This document shows positions 411 to 5,243 of a stretch of DNA of 64,000 bases, piece by piece. The stretch spans positions 434,001 through 498,000 of the forward strand of contig CANLUS010000001.1 of NCBI GenBank assembly GCA_947494325.1, written 5' to 3'. Within the stretch, counting starts at the first letter, position 1. The number at the start of each line of letters is the position of its first letter. The notes under the pieces were generated by a model. That model did not search any database and was not told where the DNA came from. It worked only from the letters and a program-made list of their open reading frames with translations. Position numbers and translations under genes: made by a program. The stretch comes from an uncultured Flavobacteriaceae bacterium. Its GTDB lineage: Bacteria; Bacteroidota; Bacteroidia; Flavobacteriales; Flavobacteriaceae.

Positions 411-686
411 ATGAAGAATACATTTAGAGTAGTTAGTATCTTAGAAGGAGTCTCTTATATTTTATTGCTTTTTATAGCCACTCCTATCAAATATCTAGCC
501 CAAGATGAGACCTATGTTAAATTATTAGGTATGCCTCACGGACTTTTATTTGTTGCCTATCTAGTGTTGGCTTTTTTGATAAAAGATAGCTTAAATTGGG
601 ATAGAAAAACTTTTTTGATTGTATTGGCTGCCTCAATTATTCCTTTTGGCACTTTTTATATTGACAAAAAGTATTTGCGAAACTAA
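411..686 (+). CDS. DUF3817 family small integral membrane protein
   Basis: Encodes a 91-residue membrane protein with three likely transmembrane segments and the pattern RVVSILEGVSYILLLF followed by KYL and MPHGLLFVAYL, which I recognise as the DUF3817 (YdzA-like) family. The function of that family is unknown. The ATG at 411 is chosen because the upstream TTG at 390 overlaps the -7 promoter box. The gene is inserted in opposite orientation between moaD and moaE, and its stop codon overlaps the moaD stop codon by three bases. Confidence 0.8.
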   Translation: MKNTFRVVSILEGVSYILLLFIATPIKYLAQDETYVKLLGMPHGLLFVAYLVLAFLIKDSLNWDRKTFLIVLAASIIPFGTFYIDKKYLRN

Positions 687-925
687 CCTCCGCTCACAGG
701 CGGAATCAACGCCACTACATCATTATCTTGAATGGTGTAGTCATTTTTAGTATAGGCTTCGTTAACAGCTATCGTATAATTTTGATATTGATGGAGGTTT
801 GGGTACTTCACTAATAAATCTTCTCTTAATGTTTCCAAAGTAATACCCGAAACAACTTGTTTAACCAGTTTATTTTCACCCACAACATCTCTTAAAATTC
901 CAAAAAGAAGGATCTCTATCTGCAT
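683..925 (-). CDS. moaD: Molybdopterin synthase sulfur carrier subunit MoaD
   Basis: An 80-residue ThiS/MoaD ubiquitin-like protein ending in Gly-Gly (PPVSGG), the C-terminus that is thiocarboxylated and donates sulfur to the pterin through MoaE. Length is normal for the family. A -7 box TAACTTTG lies on the minus strand at 937-930, only four bases before the ATG at 925, so the transcript is probably leaderless or nearly so. The promoter is divergent from that of the downstream SulP gene. moaE lies further along the same strand beyond the DUF3817 gene. Confidence 0.85.
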   Translation of the reverse strand: MQIEILLFGILRDVVGENKLVKQVVSGITLETLREDLLVKYPNLHQYQNYTIAVNEAYTKNDYTIQDNDVVALIPPVSGG

Positions 926-929
926 AATT

Positions 930-956
930 CAAAGTTATTAAATTCTCTTACATTTG
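930..956. promoter_or_regulatory. Divergent -7 boxes for moaD and the SulP gene
   Basis: Minus-strand TAACTTTG (937-930) points to moaD and plus-strand TACATTTG (949-956) points to the SulP gene. Both match TAnnTTTG exactly. They are separated by 11 bases. Confidence 0.6.
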
Positions 957-977
957 TGTTATCAAATAACGAATTCT

Positions 978-2705
978 TTGAAAAAAATATTTCCAATATT
1001 AGATTGGTTACCCAACTACAAAGCTTCTTATTTAAAAGGTGATTTATTCGCCGGATTAACCGTAGGCGTTATTCTAATTCCACAAGGTATCGCTTATGCG
1101 ATTATCGCTGGACTGCCACCAATTTATGGTTTATACACAGCATTAGTACCTCAAATAATGTATACCGTTTTTGGTACTTCTAGACAACTAGCAACTGGCC
1201 CAGTGGCTATAGATTCATTAATTGTAGCAGCGGGGGTTTCTACATTGGCCTTAGCAGAATCCGAAAATTATATTGCAATTGTACTCGCCTTAACACTTAT
1301 GGTAGGCTGCATCCAGATAATTGTTGGAGCGTTTAGACTTGGTTTTATCGTTAATTTTTTATCAAAACCTGTACTGACCGGATTTGTTGCGGCTGCAGGG
1401 CTAATTATTGGATTTAATCAATTTAAAGGCCTCTTAAGAATAGACATAGAACGGAGTAATCGAATTCAATTCATTGTTCAAAATGTATTTCAAGAAATCA
1501 CTACCATTCATTGGAAAAGTTTCTTGTTAGGTGGCGCATCCATTGCTATTATTTATGGTCTTCGGAAAATTAATAAAAAAATTCCTGGTCCTTTATTAGT
1601 GGTTATTCTCGGTATACTACTCATGAGATGGTTTACAAATTATTTTGAAGGTGTAGAAATTGTAAAGAATATTCCGAAAGGATTGCCTTCGTTTGAAATT
1701 CCTACAATTGATTACGAATTATTTTTAAAACTCATACCAATTGCACTAACGCTTGCGTTCATTGGTTTTCTACAAGGCATTTCAATTGCAAAAGTATTAG
1801 ATGAAGATAATCCAGAGTCTACTTTAAATGCAAATAAAGAACTCATTGCTCTTGGAATGGGTAATATCGCAGGTTCTTTTTTTAGTTCTTATTCTTCGAC
1901 TGGAAGCTTCTCAAGATCGGCCATTAACAAAGAAGTTGGTGCAAAGAGTACTATGTCAAACTTAATTGCTGCATTTTTTATTCTGTTGACCTTATTGTTT
2001 TTCACTCCAATTTTTTATTATTTACCAAAAACAGTCTTAGCTGCAATCATTGTTGTAGCTGTTTTTAGTCTTATCAAAATAAAAGATATTCAGTTTTTAT
2101 GGAAAAGTAACCGTAAAGATTTTATCATGATGTTGGTTACTTTTATCATCACTTTAACAGTAGGCATCAAAGAAGGCATTATTATTGGTGTACTCTTATC
2201 GATTTTCGTTGTTATTTTTGAAACTTCAAGACCGCATATGGCCGTATTAGGAAAGGTACCAGATACAACACATTTTTATAGAAATTTAAATCGATTTGAT
2301 GATGTAATCATTTATGAAGAAGTTCTAATTGTTCGTTTTGACGCACAGCTATATTTTGCCAATGCCAATTATTTTAAAGACAAGTTAGAGGAGTTTGTAA
2401 AATTAAAAGGTGATAAATTGAAGCTAATTATTATTGATGCCGAGGTAATTAGCAATATTGATAGTAGCGGAATTGCTACCTTGGAAACCATTTTGGATAG
2501 GTATTCTAAAAGAGGCTTGAAAATATATTTTACTAGTATTAAAGGCCCTGTAAGGGATGCCCTAGCTAAAAGCAAACTCATACATAAAATTGGACTAGAG
2601 AACTGTTTCATGAGTATACAAAGTGCAGTTGATCATTTTGAAAAAGGAGATGAAGAGTTTAAAAGAGCCTATTCACGTTATGTGCATCAAGCGAATGCCG
2701 ATTAA
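978..2705 (+). CDS. SulP family anion transporter with STAS domain
   Basis: A polytopic inner-membrane protein of about 575 residues. The N-terminal part has the SulP signature (LPNYKASYLKGDLFAGLTVG, then IPQGIAYAIIAGLPPIYGLY) and about a dozen membrane segments; the C-terminal ~120 residues form a STAS domain (IDAEVISNIDSSGIATLE). SulP proteins move sulfate, bicarbonate or other anions; the substrate cannot be read from sequence. No ATG precedes the conserved N-terminus. TTG at 978 gives MKKIFPIL- and is preferred over TTG at 954, which lies inside the -7 box. Its position beside persulfide and rhodanese genes favours a sulfur oxyanion, but this is inference. Confidence 0.85.
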   Translation: MKKIFPILDWLPNYKASYLKGDLFAGLTVGVILIPQGIAYAIIAGLPPIYGLYTALVPQIMYTVFGTSRQLATGPVAIDSLIVAAGVSTLALAESENYIAIVLALTLMVGCIQIIVGAFRLGFIVNFLSKPVLTGFVAAAGLIIGFNQFKGLLRIDIERSNRIQFIVQNVFQEITTIHWKSFLLGGASIAIIYGLRKINKKIPGPLLVVILGILLMRWFTNYFEGVEIVKNIPKGLPSFEIPTIDYELFLKLIPIALTLAFIGFLQGISIAKVLDEDNPESTLNANKELIALGMGNIAGSFFSSYSSTGSFSRSAINKEVGAKSTMSNLIAAFFILLTLLFFTPIFYYLPKTVLAAIIVVAVFSLIKIKDIQFLWKSNRKDFIMMLVTFIITLTVGIKEGIIIGVLLSIFVVIFETSRPHMAVLGKVPDTTHFYRNLNRFDDVIIYEEVLIVRFDAQLYFANANYFKDKLEEFVKLKGDKLKLIIIDAEVISNIDSSGIATLETILDRYSKRGLKIYFTSIKGPVRDALAKSKLIHKIGLENCFMSIQSAVDHFEKGDEEFKRAYSRYVHQANAD

Positions 2706-2713
2706 CATTATTA

Positions 2714-2729
2714 TGTGATAAATATCACA
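2714..2729. promoter_or_regulatory. CRP/FNR-type palindrome in front of the persulfide dioxygenase gene
   Basis: TGTGATAAATATCACA is a perfect 16-bp inverted repeat of the CRP form TGTGA-N6-TCACA. Its centre is 29.5 bp before the first base of the -7 box TAGTTTTG (2751-2758), placing it near -42, a class II activator position. A second site with the same spacing occurs at 5176-5191. Confidence 0.65.
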
Positions 2730-2750
2730 CAGCGAAATTTCAATTATATG

Positions 2751-2758
2751 TAGTTTTG
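2751..2758 (+). promoter_or_regulatory. -7 box TAGTTTTG
   Basis: Exact match to TAnnTTTG, 18 bases before the ATG at 2777. Confidence 0.55.
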
Positions 2759-2776
2759 CAGTAAAATAGACAGATT

Positions 2777-4186
2777 ATGAACATAGAACAGATATATACC
2801 GGTTGTTTAGCTCAGGGAGCTTATTATATAGAAAGTAATGGAGAGGTAGCTATAGTTGATCCCTTACGGGAAGTGAATCCATATTTATCACGTGCTCAAA
2901 AAGATGGTGCCAACATAAAATATATTTTCGAAACACATTTTCATGCTGATTTTGTAAGTGGTCATGTCACTTTAGCCGAAAAGACAGGTGCTACTATCGT
3001 TTTTGGACCTAACGCTGAGACATCATTTGAATCGTATATTGCCCAGGATGGAGAAGTTTTTAAAATTGGTGATATTACAATTACCGCACTACACACACCT
3101 GGTCACACTATGGAAAGTACTACGTATTTGTTGAAAGATAGCAACAATAATGAACACGCCATATTTAGTGGAGACACCTTGTTTCTAGGTGACGTCGGAA
3201 GACCAGATTTAGCTCAAAAAGCGGCTCATATGACCCAAGAAGAACTTGCCGGTATTTTGTATGATAGTTTGAGAACCAAAATAATGACTTTGCCCGATAA
3301 AGTAGTTGTATACCCAGCGCATGGAGCTGGATCCGCATGCGGAAAAAATATGAGTAAAGAAACAGTAGGAACAATTGGTGATCAAAAAAAGACGAATTAT
3401 GCCTTACGTACTGATATGAACAAGGAAGAATTTATAAAAGAAGTTACAGACGGCTTACTACCTCCACCATCTTATTTTCCATTAAATGTTAAACTTAATA
3501 AGGAAGGGTATGAAAGTATTGATACAATAATTGATAAAGGAACGCGCGCTTTATCTCCGAATGAATTTGAACAACTTGCGAATGAAACTGATGCCTTAGT
3601 TTTAGATGTTCGTCATCAATCAGAATTTATCAAAGGATTTATTCCACGTTCAATTTTTATCGGAATTGACGGTGGTTTTGCCCCTTGGGTAGGTGCTTTG
3701 ATTAAAGATATCGAACAGCCCATTTTACTTGTAACACCTGAAGGAAGAGAAGAAGAAACAGTAACTCGATTGTCTCGAGTAGGGTTTGATAATACCTTGG
3801 GTTATTTGAATGGAAGTTATAATGCTTGGAAAAGCGCAGGTAAAGAAATAGATCTATTAGAATCTATAAGCGCTACAAATTTAGAAACGAAAATAACTCA
3901 AGAAAATGCCGCCGTATTTGATGTTCGGAAACCGGGAGAATATGAAAGCGAACATATTGTTGATGTTCCGAGCACACCGTTGGATTTTTTAAATGATCAT
4001 ATTAATGAATTTCCGAAAAACGAACCATTTTATGTTCATTGTGCCGGGGGGTATCGTTCTGTAATCGCGGCTTCTATTTTAAAAGCTCGAGGATTTCATA
4101 ATGTCATTGATATTGCCGGTGGTTATGGAGCCATCAAAAAAACGGACATCAAAAAAACAACTTATGTTTGTCCAACAACGCTGTAA
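2777..4186 (+). CDS. CstB-like persulfide dioxygenase: metallo-beta-lactamase domain plus two rhodanese domains
   Basis: 469 residues. The N-terminal metallo-beta-lactamase domain has the THFHADF motif with H54, H56, D58 and H63, then H110, D133 and H182, the mononuclear iron pattern of ETHE1-type persulfide dioxygenases. A first rhodanese domain (about 265-355) has no cysteine in its active loop (TPEGREEE) and should be inactive. The second (about 370-460) has the active loop HCAGGYRS with C422. This order matches CstB, which turns low-molecular-weight persulfide into thiosulfate in the cytoplasm. It heads a cluster with a DUF6265 protein and a rhodanese lipoprotein, and a CRP/FNR-type site lies upstream. 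Sulfide or persulfide detoxification is the likely role. Confidence 0.88.
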   Translation: MNIEQIYTGCLAQGAYYIESNGEVAIVDPLREVNPYLSRAQKDGANIKYIFETHFHADFVSGHVTLAEKTGATIVFGPNAETSFESYIAQDGEVFKIGDITITALHTPGHTMESTTYLLKDSNNNEHAIFSGDTLFLGDVGRPDLAQKAAHMTQEELAGILYDSLRTKIMTLPDKVVVYPAHGAGSACGKNMSKETVGTIGDQKKTNYALRTDMNKEEFIKEVTDGLLPPPSYFPLNVKLNKEGYESIDTIIDKGTRALSPNEFEQLANETDALVLDVRHQSEFIKGFIPRSIFIGIDGGFAPWVGALIKDIEQPILLVTPEGREEETVTRLSRVGFDNTLGYLNGSYNAWKSAGKEIDLLESISATNLETKITQENAAVFDVRKPGEYESEHIVDVPSTPLDFLNDHINEFPKNEPFYVHCAGGYRSVIAASILKARGFHNVIDIAGGYGAIKKTDIKKTTYVCPTTL

Positions 4187-4213
4187 TACTTTGTTAGTAG
4201 TATAAAACAAATC

Positions 4214-4726
4214 ATGAAAAAATACATTTTGCTTTTCAGTTTAGTCTTTTCTGTGTCTTCTATAATGAAGGCTCAAACAAAAGTCTCTGAAAATATCTTA
4301 ACGTTGGATAGTCTCTCAACAAGCCCGAAGGCAACCCTTGCTGACGTTGCGTGGATTTCTGGAAACTGGAAAGGAGAAGCGTTTGGTGGTATCACGGAGG
4401 AAAATTGGAGCAGACCTTCAGGAGATTCTATGATGGCGGCCTTTAAATTAATTGTAAATAATAGGGTTGAATTTTACGAAATTGAAATAATCCGTCAAGT
4501 TAAAGAATCTTTGATGTTGCAATTAAAACATTTTAAGGGTGATTTAAAAGGTTGGGAAACTAAAGATGAAACAGTCGATTTTCCATTGGTTAAAATTGAT
4601 GAACGCACTGTTTATTTTGATGGCATGACCTTCGAAAAAATTAATATTAACGAAATGAATGTGTATGTTTTAATGCGCAGCAAAGATGGCAGTACCAGCG
4701 AATTAAAATTCAATTATAAAAAATGA
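4214..4726 (+). CDS. Exported DUF6265 domain protein
   Basis: 170 residues with a signal peptide (MKKYILLFSLVFSVSSIMKAQ) and a DUF6265-like domain starting LADVAWISGNWKGEA, with ENWSRPSGDSMMAAFK, a pattern seen in small secreted flavobacterial proteins. No catalytic function is known for the family. It lies 27 bases after the persulfide dioxygenase gene and its stop overlaps the next start (ATGA), so it is probably co-transcribed with the sulfur genes. Whether it takes part in sulfur metabolism is unknown. Confidence 0.72.
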   Translation: MKKYILLFSLVFSVSSIMKAQTKVSENILTLDSLSTSPKATLADVAWISGNWKGEAFGGITEENWSRPSGDSMMAAFKLIVNNRVEFYEIEIIRQVKESLMLQLKHFKGDLKGWETKDETVDFPLVKIDERTVYFDGMTFEKININEMNVYVLMRSKDGSTSELKFNYKK

Positions 4727-5142
4727 AATCGATCAAATTAGTAGTTATAGTGTGCTTTTTCACCCTGTTTTCTTGCAAGGAACAAAAGCTTAAAGCGCAA
4801 AAAACAATCGATGCTCAACAAAAAGAAATTGCTAAAATTGAAGTGGTTGATTTTAAAGCCAAAATTGAAGGAAAGCCTTTCCAACTAATTGATGTGCGTA
4901 CACCTGAAGAATATAATGAAGGGCATATTGCCTCCGCCAAGAATATAAATTTTTATGATACTAATTTTTTAAAGCTATTAGAAAAACTTGACAAAAGCAA
5001 GCCAGTGTTTTTATATTGTAAAAGTGGGGGTCGCAGTGGTAAAGCTTCAGCACGATTGCGCGATGCTGGTTTTAAATCAATATACGATCTTAAAGGAGGA
5101 TTTGTTGCTTGGCAGAACGCGGGGTTTTCTGTTGAACATTGA
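4723..5142 (+). CDS. Rhodanese-domain lipoprotein
   Basis: 139 residues. The N-terminus is a lipoprotein signal (FFTLFSCKEQ), so the protein is probably membrane-anchored facing the periplasm. A single rhodanese domain follows with LIDVRTPEEYNEGHI and an intact active loop CKSGGRS. Rhodaneses carry sulfane sulfur on the loop cysteine. Its ATG overlaps the preceding stop codon. A periplasmic sulfurtransferase would complement the cytoplasmic persulfide dioxygenase upstream; the acceptor is unknown. Confidence 0.85.
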   Translation: MKSIKLVVIVCFFTLFSCKEQKLKAQKTIDAQQKEIAKIEVVDFKAKIEGKPFQLIDVRTPEEYNEGHIASAKNINFYDTNFLKLLEKLDKSKPVFLYCKSGGRSGKASARLRDAGFKSIYDLKGGFVAWQNAGFSVEH

Positions 5143-5175
5143 ATAAACACCCTTTTTCAAGTCTCCAATTGTATC

Positions 5176-5191
5176 TGTAACCTTTGTTACA
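5176..5191. promoter_or_regulatory. Second CRP/FNR-type palindrome, in front of the DUF2892 gene
   Basis: TGTAACCTTTGTTACA is a perfect inverted repeat with 6-bp arms and a 4-bp centre, the same geometry as 2714-2729. The centre is again 29.5 bp before a near-consensus -7 box (TAGGTTCG, 5213-5220, one mismatch). Confidence 0.6.
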
Positions 5192-5212
5192 ATGCATCTC
5201 TCACATTAGTTG

Positions 5213-5220
5213 TAGGTTCG
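5213..5220 (+). promoter_or_regulatory. Imperfect -7 box TAGGTTCG
   Basis: Seven of eight positions agree with TAnnTTTG. A weak core promoter next to an activator-type site is expected for an activator-dependent gene. Confidence 0.4.
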
Positions 5221-5243
5221 CTTTGAACTTTAAAACAAGAATC

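Follow-up and report, generated by a model that had tools for sequence, protein, structure and literature searches.

In the 64,000-nucleotide stretch of DNA analysed here (the window; positions 434,001 to 498,000 of contig CANLUS010000001.1, assembly GCA_947494325.1, from an uncultured Flavobacteriaceae bacterium), a presumed three-gene operon for a putative persulfide dioxygenase (PDO), a DUF6265 protein and a rhodanese is followed by a gene for a DUF2892 protein, and a 16-bp palindrome precedes both the operon (site 1) and the DUF2892 gene (site 2) (Table 1). The first protein of the operon combines a metallo-beta-lactamase domain with rhodanese domains, the architecture of ETHE1-type PDOs in Pfam, and these domains point to a putative enzyme of that type; its assignment to the NCBIfam Blh equivalog was rejected, with a score of 69 against a cut-off of 625.

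Both sites are perfect 6-4-6 palindromes placed 21 bp 5′ of a flavobacterial -7 box, and the distance from centre to box is 29.5 bp in each case. A previous sequence-only reading of the window had described this arrangement: its palindrome sequences, coordinates and perfect form were exact, and the common distance was confirmed, box 2 carrying one mismatch to TAnnTTTG. The -7 box recognized by sigma-A in Flavobacterium psychrophilum is described as spanning positions -12 to -5 (PMC9723704). If this span is valid here, both centres would fall at -41.5 relative to the transcript starts of Table 1, and the two sites would occupy the class II activator position, provided that the -7 box marks the start.

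Table 1. Features of the locus and of the proposed regulon (plain numbers are positions in the window; C1 coordinates refer to the bacterium's own genome, G000).
Feature	Position	Strand	Remarks
Site 1, candidate operator palindrome TGTGATAAATATCACA	2714..2729	+	centre 2721.5; predicted position -41.5
-7 box 1, TAGTTTTG	2751..2758	+	fits TAnnTTTG; transcript start inferred at 2763
Putative PDO/rhodanese-type protein, 469 amino acids (aa)	2777..4186	+	PF00753 + two PF00581 stretches
DUF6265 protein, 170 aa, gene 2 of presumed operon	4214..4726	+	PF19780; operon inferred from spacing
Rhodanese, 139 aa, gene 3; N-terminus lipoprotein-like (label by eye)	4723..5142	+	PF00581
Site 2, candidate operator palindrome TGTAACCTTTGTTACA	5176..5191	+	centre 5183.5; predicted position -41.5
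-7 box 2, TAGGTTCG	5213..5220	+	one mismatch to TAnnTTTG; transcript start inferred at 5225
DUF2892 / YgaP-like transmembrane protein, 70 aa	5244..5456	+	PF11127
CRP/FNR-family regulator gene	G000:C1:423228-423869		13 kb upstream of site 1, outside the window; PF00027 + PF13545 above cut-off
Rhodanese-like gene, 98 aa (label by eye)	C1:287913-288206	-	site core C1:288259-288272
SulP-type permease with STAS domain, upstream neighbour	954..2705	+	PF00916, PF01740
DUF3817 membrane protein	414-686	+	PF12823

Taken singly with up to three mismatches, the two 16-mers were no rarer than chance (2 matches vs 1.50 expected, and 1 vs 1.06), and the genome is AT-rich; both points would suit palindromes that arose by chance or that serve another role, for example in RNA structure. 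The window contains 41 six-four-six palindromes, among which sites 1 and 2 are the only ones beginning with TGT; in 600 windows simulated by a first-order Markov chain, perfect palindromes of this kind had a mean of 0.37 per window, with at least two in 32 of the 600. When a box (no more than one mismatch) was required at a gap of 21, the mean was 0.013 and two such pairs were found in none of the 600 simulations; with the core relaxed to GTRAY-N4-RTYAC and the gap to 20-21, a single simulated window contained at least two pairs. A search of the window itself with up to two mismatches overall in motif and box added three matches, every one within open reading frames (ORFs); in this same search, between 0 and 4 matches were obtained with each of six control gap pairs. 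The unusual feature is the motif combined with the box, not the core motif alone. The fixed gap to the box, the conservation of the sites and their absence from genomes lacking the regulator, presented below, also speak against chance or another role, as does the location of both palindromes upstream of the inferred transcript starts, and either reading is extremely improbable.

The sequence-only reading would have been refuted by close relatives that lack the palindromes. Comparison of orthologous promoters came out in its favour, with both sites kept in the nearest relative, G004, and site 1 also in G003. Site 1 reads TGTGACAAATATCACA in G004 and TGTGACTAATATCACA in G003, in both cases at gap 21 from the box TAGTTTTG, and site 2 of G004 is identical at 16 of 16 positions inside a diverged spacer, with the box TAAGTTCG at the same gap. 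In G003 the rhodanese gene is directly followed by an EamA-type gene, DUF2892 and site 2 both being absent. Within the own genome (3.64 Mb, 43 contigs), inspection of all 45 strict core matches yielded three with a box at gap 20-21 that departs from TAnnTTTG at no more than one position, and these precede the PDO gene, the DUF2892 gene and a 98-aa rhodanese-like gene, all of sulfur type; another match, within an ORF (L293), has its box at gap 22, again with one mismatch. The 16-base form TGTRAY-N4-RTYACA occurs eight times in the whole genome, against four for the reversed control.

The factor that binds these sites is very probably, judging from the comparisons that follow, the product of a regulator gene located outside the window, which was absent from the sequence-only account. 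Its cNMP-binding-like domain and Crp-type helix-turn-helix identify it in Pfam as a member of the CRP/FNR superfamily, one of four own proteins with a cNMP-binding domain above cut-off. A YeeE-type gene begins 62 bp after it and is followed by one for a DUF6691 protein. The 62-bp interval carries a third site, TGTAACATTAGTTGCA, whose box, at gap 20, is a poor one, which makes the YeeE promoter a fourth, weaker candidate for the regulon. A profile built from 26 regulator orthologues recovered 80 loci, mostly labelled flavobacterial and one Flexithrix, and 68 of them hold at least one sulfur-type gene (PDO, YeeE, TauE, DUF6691, SulP, SQR-like, DsrC, DsrE-like or rhodanese). By tblastn with the own genes in flanks of up to 10 kb, PDO was found near the regulator in 39 of the 80 and YeeE in 29, while clustering gave TauE in 30, DUF6691 in 27, SulP in 12, and DsrC and a DsrE-like protein in 6 each. 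An SQR-like flavoprotein was present in 11 loci, an SQR label assigned by eye to proteins that Pfam describes only as Pyr_redox_2. In L121 and L150, two tandem PDO genes stand behind the regulator.

These 80 loci (1.38 Mb) were scanned for the strict core and for TAnnTTTG boxes within 50 bp. The 250 site-orientations recovered had 38 boxes at gap 21, 19 at gap 20 and six at all other gaps combined; with one mismatch permitted, 78 pairs occurred at gap 20-21, in 56 of the 80 loci, vs 50 across all other gaps. Scrambled half-sites or altered inner gaps produced no peak at 20-21 in these loci, and the largest pile among these controls was 8, at inner gap 6 and box gap 8, followed by 6 at inner gap 5 and box gap 16. 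Nearly all of the 78 pairs (75) lie within 150 bp upstream of an ORF start, and one lies within an ORF. The first gene downstream belonged to a PDO/rhodanese cluster in 26 cases (22 full-length PDOs, two incomplete at the locus end and two shorter rhodanese-type genes), followed by YeeE and TauE (11 each), SulP (6), an iron-sulfur (FeS) subunit and a cytochrome (4 each), the regulator and a CydA-like gene (2 each), a molybdenum (Mo) enzyme and DUF2892 (1 each), and others (10). No GTRAY-type site with a box was seen before the SulP gene of the window. Moreover, 32 of 46 YeeE upstream regions carried a site and box (site with at most one mismatch, two in all, gap 19-22) in a set that, like the 119 regulator copies considered below, is partly redundant because the two underlying collections share species; the own region fails because of its box. 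The gap was mostly 20 at YeeE promoters of the own lineage and its near kin, vs 21 in 43 of the 54 PDO promoters described next.

The occurrence of the regulator and of the PDO site was then compared among 149 genomes. PDO is present in 128, and one PDO each was examined in 122, the own genome included (in G053, a second copy); G082 was excluded for a missing gene start, and G002, G023, G038, G047 and G057 for having a distant match only. A site was called with at most one mismatch overall and a box at gap 20-21, some upstream stretches being shorter than 1400 bp. With regulator presence drawn at 42% identity, a line set after the data were seen, the PDO site was found within 600 bp in 54 of 74 genomes at or above the line, in 4 of the 22 whose match was weaker and in none of the 26 without a match; within the own family the figures were 53/67, 1/4 and 0/10. 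The reversed motif gave 0/122 at this distance, as did eight other gaps combined. Within 1400 bp the site was found in 60/74, 7/22 and 0/26, and the controls gave two reversed matches and one off-gap match, always in genomes at or above the line. For 74 vs 26 genomes at 600 bp, Fisher's exact test returned 8e-12, with the relatives not being independent. The group with weaker matches mixes likely paralogues with likely orthologues, the latter including G102 and G113, whose sites are perfect.

The different half-sites of sites 1 and 2 (TGTGAT and TGTAAC) had led the sequence-only reading to allow for two related factors, and the four cNMP-binding-domain proteins of the genome could provide them, or could provide a different single binder. 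The spellings, however, interchange at orthologous promoters: site 1 begins TGTGAC, not TGTGAT, in G003 and G004, Lutibacter genomes differ at the YeeE half-site, which reads either GTGAT or GTAAC, and the left half-sites of the 54 PDO sites have A (41) or G (13) at position 4 and C (44) or T (10) at position 6 (positions 2, 3 and 5 are invariant, in part as imposed by the search rule). Because orthologous promoters exchange G with A and T with C at corresponding places of the half-site, two factors are disfavoured and a single one would suffice for both spellings. The distribution of the other three own CRP/FNR genes points the same way. Counted at 1e-15, 1e-30 and 1e-30, they match 34, 32 and 5 of the 149 genomes, against 107 for the present regulator at 1e-10, and the first of them has matches of at least 64% in only 5 of 149, the own genome included. 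PDO sites are found in relatives that largely have no match to them. For example, the first gene is unmatched in G004, though G004 keeps both sites; the second is present in G003 and G004, with no match in G001, G005, G011, G012, G014, G015 and G016, where the PDO site is present; and the first and third are unmatched in the site-bearing G001, G011, G012 and G014, while G015 and G016 match the third and G016 (31%) the first. The three genes were rejected as the main factor for their scarcity among relatives, and it is very unlikely that another own homologue binds the sites or that two factors divide TGTGAT and TGTAAC between them.

The comparative evidence supports the earlier proposal of one CRP/FNR-family activator of sulfur genes at the class II position, and in all likelihood the palindromes are the operators of one dedicated activator of a small sulfur regulon. 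From the observed sites, spacing, conservation, linkage, co-occurrence and targets, it would be predicted that the regulator binds as a dimer to GTRAY-N4-RTYAC, with the centre at -41.5 or one base closer, and that the bound dimer activates by a contact of class II type with RNA polymerase. The regulon would consist of the PDO-DUF6265-rhodanese operon, DUF2892 and the 98-aa rhodanese, with the YeeE/DUF6691 pair included more weakly; the signal that switches these genes on may be sulfane sulfur acting at a cysteine, Cys80.

Several observations weigh against this interpretation. By itself the core motif shows no genome-wide enrichment (45 matches vs 78 for the reversed pattern), the own YeeE site combines one mismatch with its poor box, and the DUF2892 site, found in 3 of 13 copies (own, G004 and L165), is less conserved than the PDO site. 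There is no sulfur-type neighbour in 12 of the 80 regulator loci, of which several exceed 11 kb and five are a full 20 kb, and no PDO site in 20 of the 74 regulator-bearing genomes within 600 bp, or in 14 within 1400 bp. In addition, ancestry and genome reduction confound the co-occurrence, because regulator-less genomes tend to be small, and both binding and activation by the regulator are predictions drawn from sequence comparison.

The residues of the regulator were compared in 119 copies, numbered by alignment to 4bh9 (E. coli CRP). Arginine stands at the places of CRP Arg180 and Arg185, in the recognition helix, in all 119, and the place of Glu181 is taken by Val in 111 and Glu in 8; position 181 is described as linked to a shift towards GTAAC (PMC1274295). 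Cys80, in a GDTC sequence where CRP has its cyclic AMP (cAMP) cassette, is found in 113 copies and replaced by Ser in six, which resemble a separate paralogue type that reads KQTSA or AQLSA instead of GDTCA. A cysteine is present at position 86 in 66 copies and at position 87 in 73; the own protein has neither, and some relatives of its own genus carry the one at 86. The only cysteines of the own regulator are Cys80 and Cys90, and this pair was rejected as a conserved switch, Cys90 being absent from the nearest relatives (L030, L031). The residues of CRP that contact cAMP lie in the phosphate-binding cassette, and in the alignment to 4bh9 a GDTC-type sequence replaces the GEL...RS cassette, so the regulator does not have the features of a cAMP receptor. 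Nor does it have the pattern of FNR, whose N-terminal cysteines hold a 4Fe-4S cluster, since the own protein has no cysteines beyond the two named.

The nearly invariant Cys80 suggests that the signal may be sulfane sulfur derived from sulfide, in the form of persulfide or polysulfide, a proposal with nearly even chances. It fits the sulfur-type targets, and a Crp-like protein of Acinetobacter baumannii is reported to be persulfidated (PMC7315123). The same regulator and sites could instead respond to a heme-bound gas or redox state (NO, CO, O2 or H2S), with Cys80 as the heme ligand, in which case the sulfur genes would track respiratory state instead of sulfane sulfur. HcpR and PgRsp of Porphyromonas gingivalis are described as heme-binding CRP/FNR proteins, a cysteine is described as the heme ligand of CooA, and the best solved match of the present regulator family, 3dv8, is also the reported modelling template for PgRsp; on the other side, the targets are of sulfur type rather than hcp, and no Hcp-family protein was found in the own genome. 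A heme-based or redox signal is the main rival, though rather unlikely. On the sulfane-sulfur proposal, a wider one can be advanced tentatively, at somewhat less than even chances: a Flavobacteriales subfamily of CRP/FNR proteins would sense sulfane sulfur via a cysteine at the place where CRP binds cAMP, activating from -41.5 the genes for persulfide oxidation, TauE-type export and YeeE-type transport and, in some species, a putative cytochrome bd and a putative molybdenum sulfur enzyme.

Other observations concern the surroundings of the regulator. Between the regulator-YeeE and SulP-PDO genes lies a molybdopterin-synthesis group (G000:C1:424953-434354, or L028:6953-16354, plus window 683-925 on the minus strand) of MoaA-, MoeA-, MoaC-, MobA-, MoeB- and MoaE-like genes (labels by eye), the gene in the window being of ThiS/MoaD type. 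Among the 80 loci, MoaA follows the regulator in 15 and MoeA in 14. The operator with a box stands before the FeS-subunit gene in four cases (L095, L100, L105 and L137) and before a molybdopterin oxidoreductase in L131, and these targets may account for the link between the regulator and molybdopterin genes. It also stands before the CydA-like genes (labelled by eye, from the N-terminus) at L156:19036 and L159:18032; a sulfide-tolerant oxidase would make sense as a regulon member. In Lutibacter-like loci (L099-L102, L104 and L105), a second CRP/FNR gene, 32-33% identical, lies between DUF6691 and MoaA (e.g., L099:11726-12334).

Flavobacteria are major marine degraders of organic matter and encounter sulfide at oxic-anoxic borders. 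With a candidate regulator, an operator, a spacing and a short target list, the control of their sulfide genes becomes testable in laboratory strains, and the constant gap to the -7 box would provide a clear example of class II activation at the atypical promoter of Bacteroidota. The best matches in the open-licence literature included neither a CRP/FNR protein that controls persulfide dioxygenase or sulfur genes of flavobacteria nor any regulator of flavobacterial sulfide or persulfide genes. Sensing of sulfide or sulfane sulfur is reported for ArsR (SqrR, BigR), sigma-54 (FisR), OxyR, LasR, MarR and other proteins, and in a review on reactive-sulfur sensing FNR is nowhere named and CRP appears only among the references (PMC9774590). 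If the proposal is true, the CRP/FNR fold would join these families as a dedicated activator.

In comparison with known systems, the regulator shares with E. coli CRP the fold, Arg180 and Arg185 of the recognition helix and the class II geometry, and differs from it by Val in place of Glu181, by a cAMP cassette that is not conserved and by an operator of GTRAY type instead of TGTGA-N6-TCACA. BigR/SqrR (ArsR family) and FisR (a sigma-54 activator) are described as controlling PDO and yeeE-yedE-pdo2 operons (PMC7315123, PMC9774590), so that their target genes (persulfide dioxygenase, YeeE/YedE, TauE) are similar; however, these proteins belong to unrelated families, and BigR and SqrR are described as cysteine-pair repressors, whereas the sites reported here pair a CRP/FNR protein with an activator position. 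PgRsp (PMC6955866) and CooA are, by their descriptions, also CRP/FNR proteins, with 3dv8 a near structural relative of both PgRsp and this regulator family, but they bind heme and respond to redox state or CO. Similarly, the Crp-like A1S_1182 of Acinetobacter baumannii has a conserved cysteine reported to be persulfidated in sulfide-exposed cells (PMC7315123); it is a CRP/FNR protein like the present one, but is 50% identical to E. coli Crp, and the available part of that source describes no sulfur regulon for it. A parallel in the operator is HcpR2, the name given to CRP/FNR regulators of hcp in Clostridium, Bacteroides and Thermotogales, whose predicted motif GTAACnnnnGTTAC (PMC1274295) is the commonest form among the 54 PDO sites. 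HcpR2 is described with Pro at position 181, where 111 of the 119 copies have Val, and with hcp as its target instead of sulfur-type genes, and membership in HcpR2 was rejected for the lack of Pro181 and of any match to an Hcp-family (Prismane) protein in the own genome. The motif itself is already known from HcpR2.

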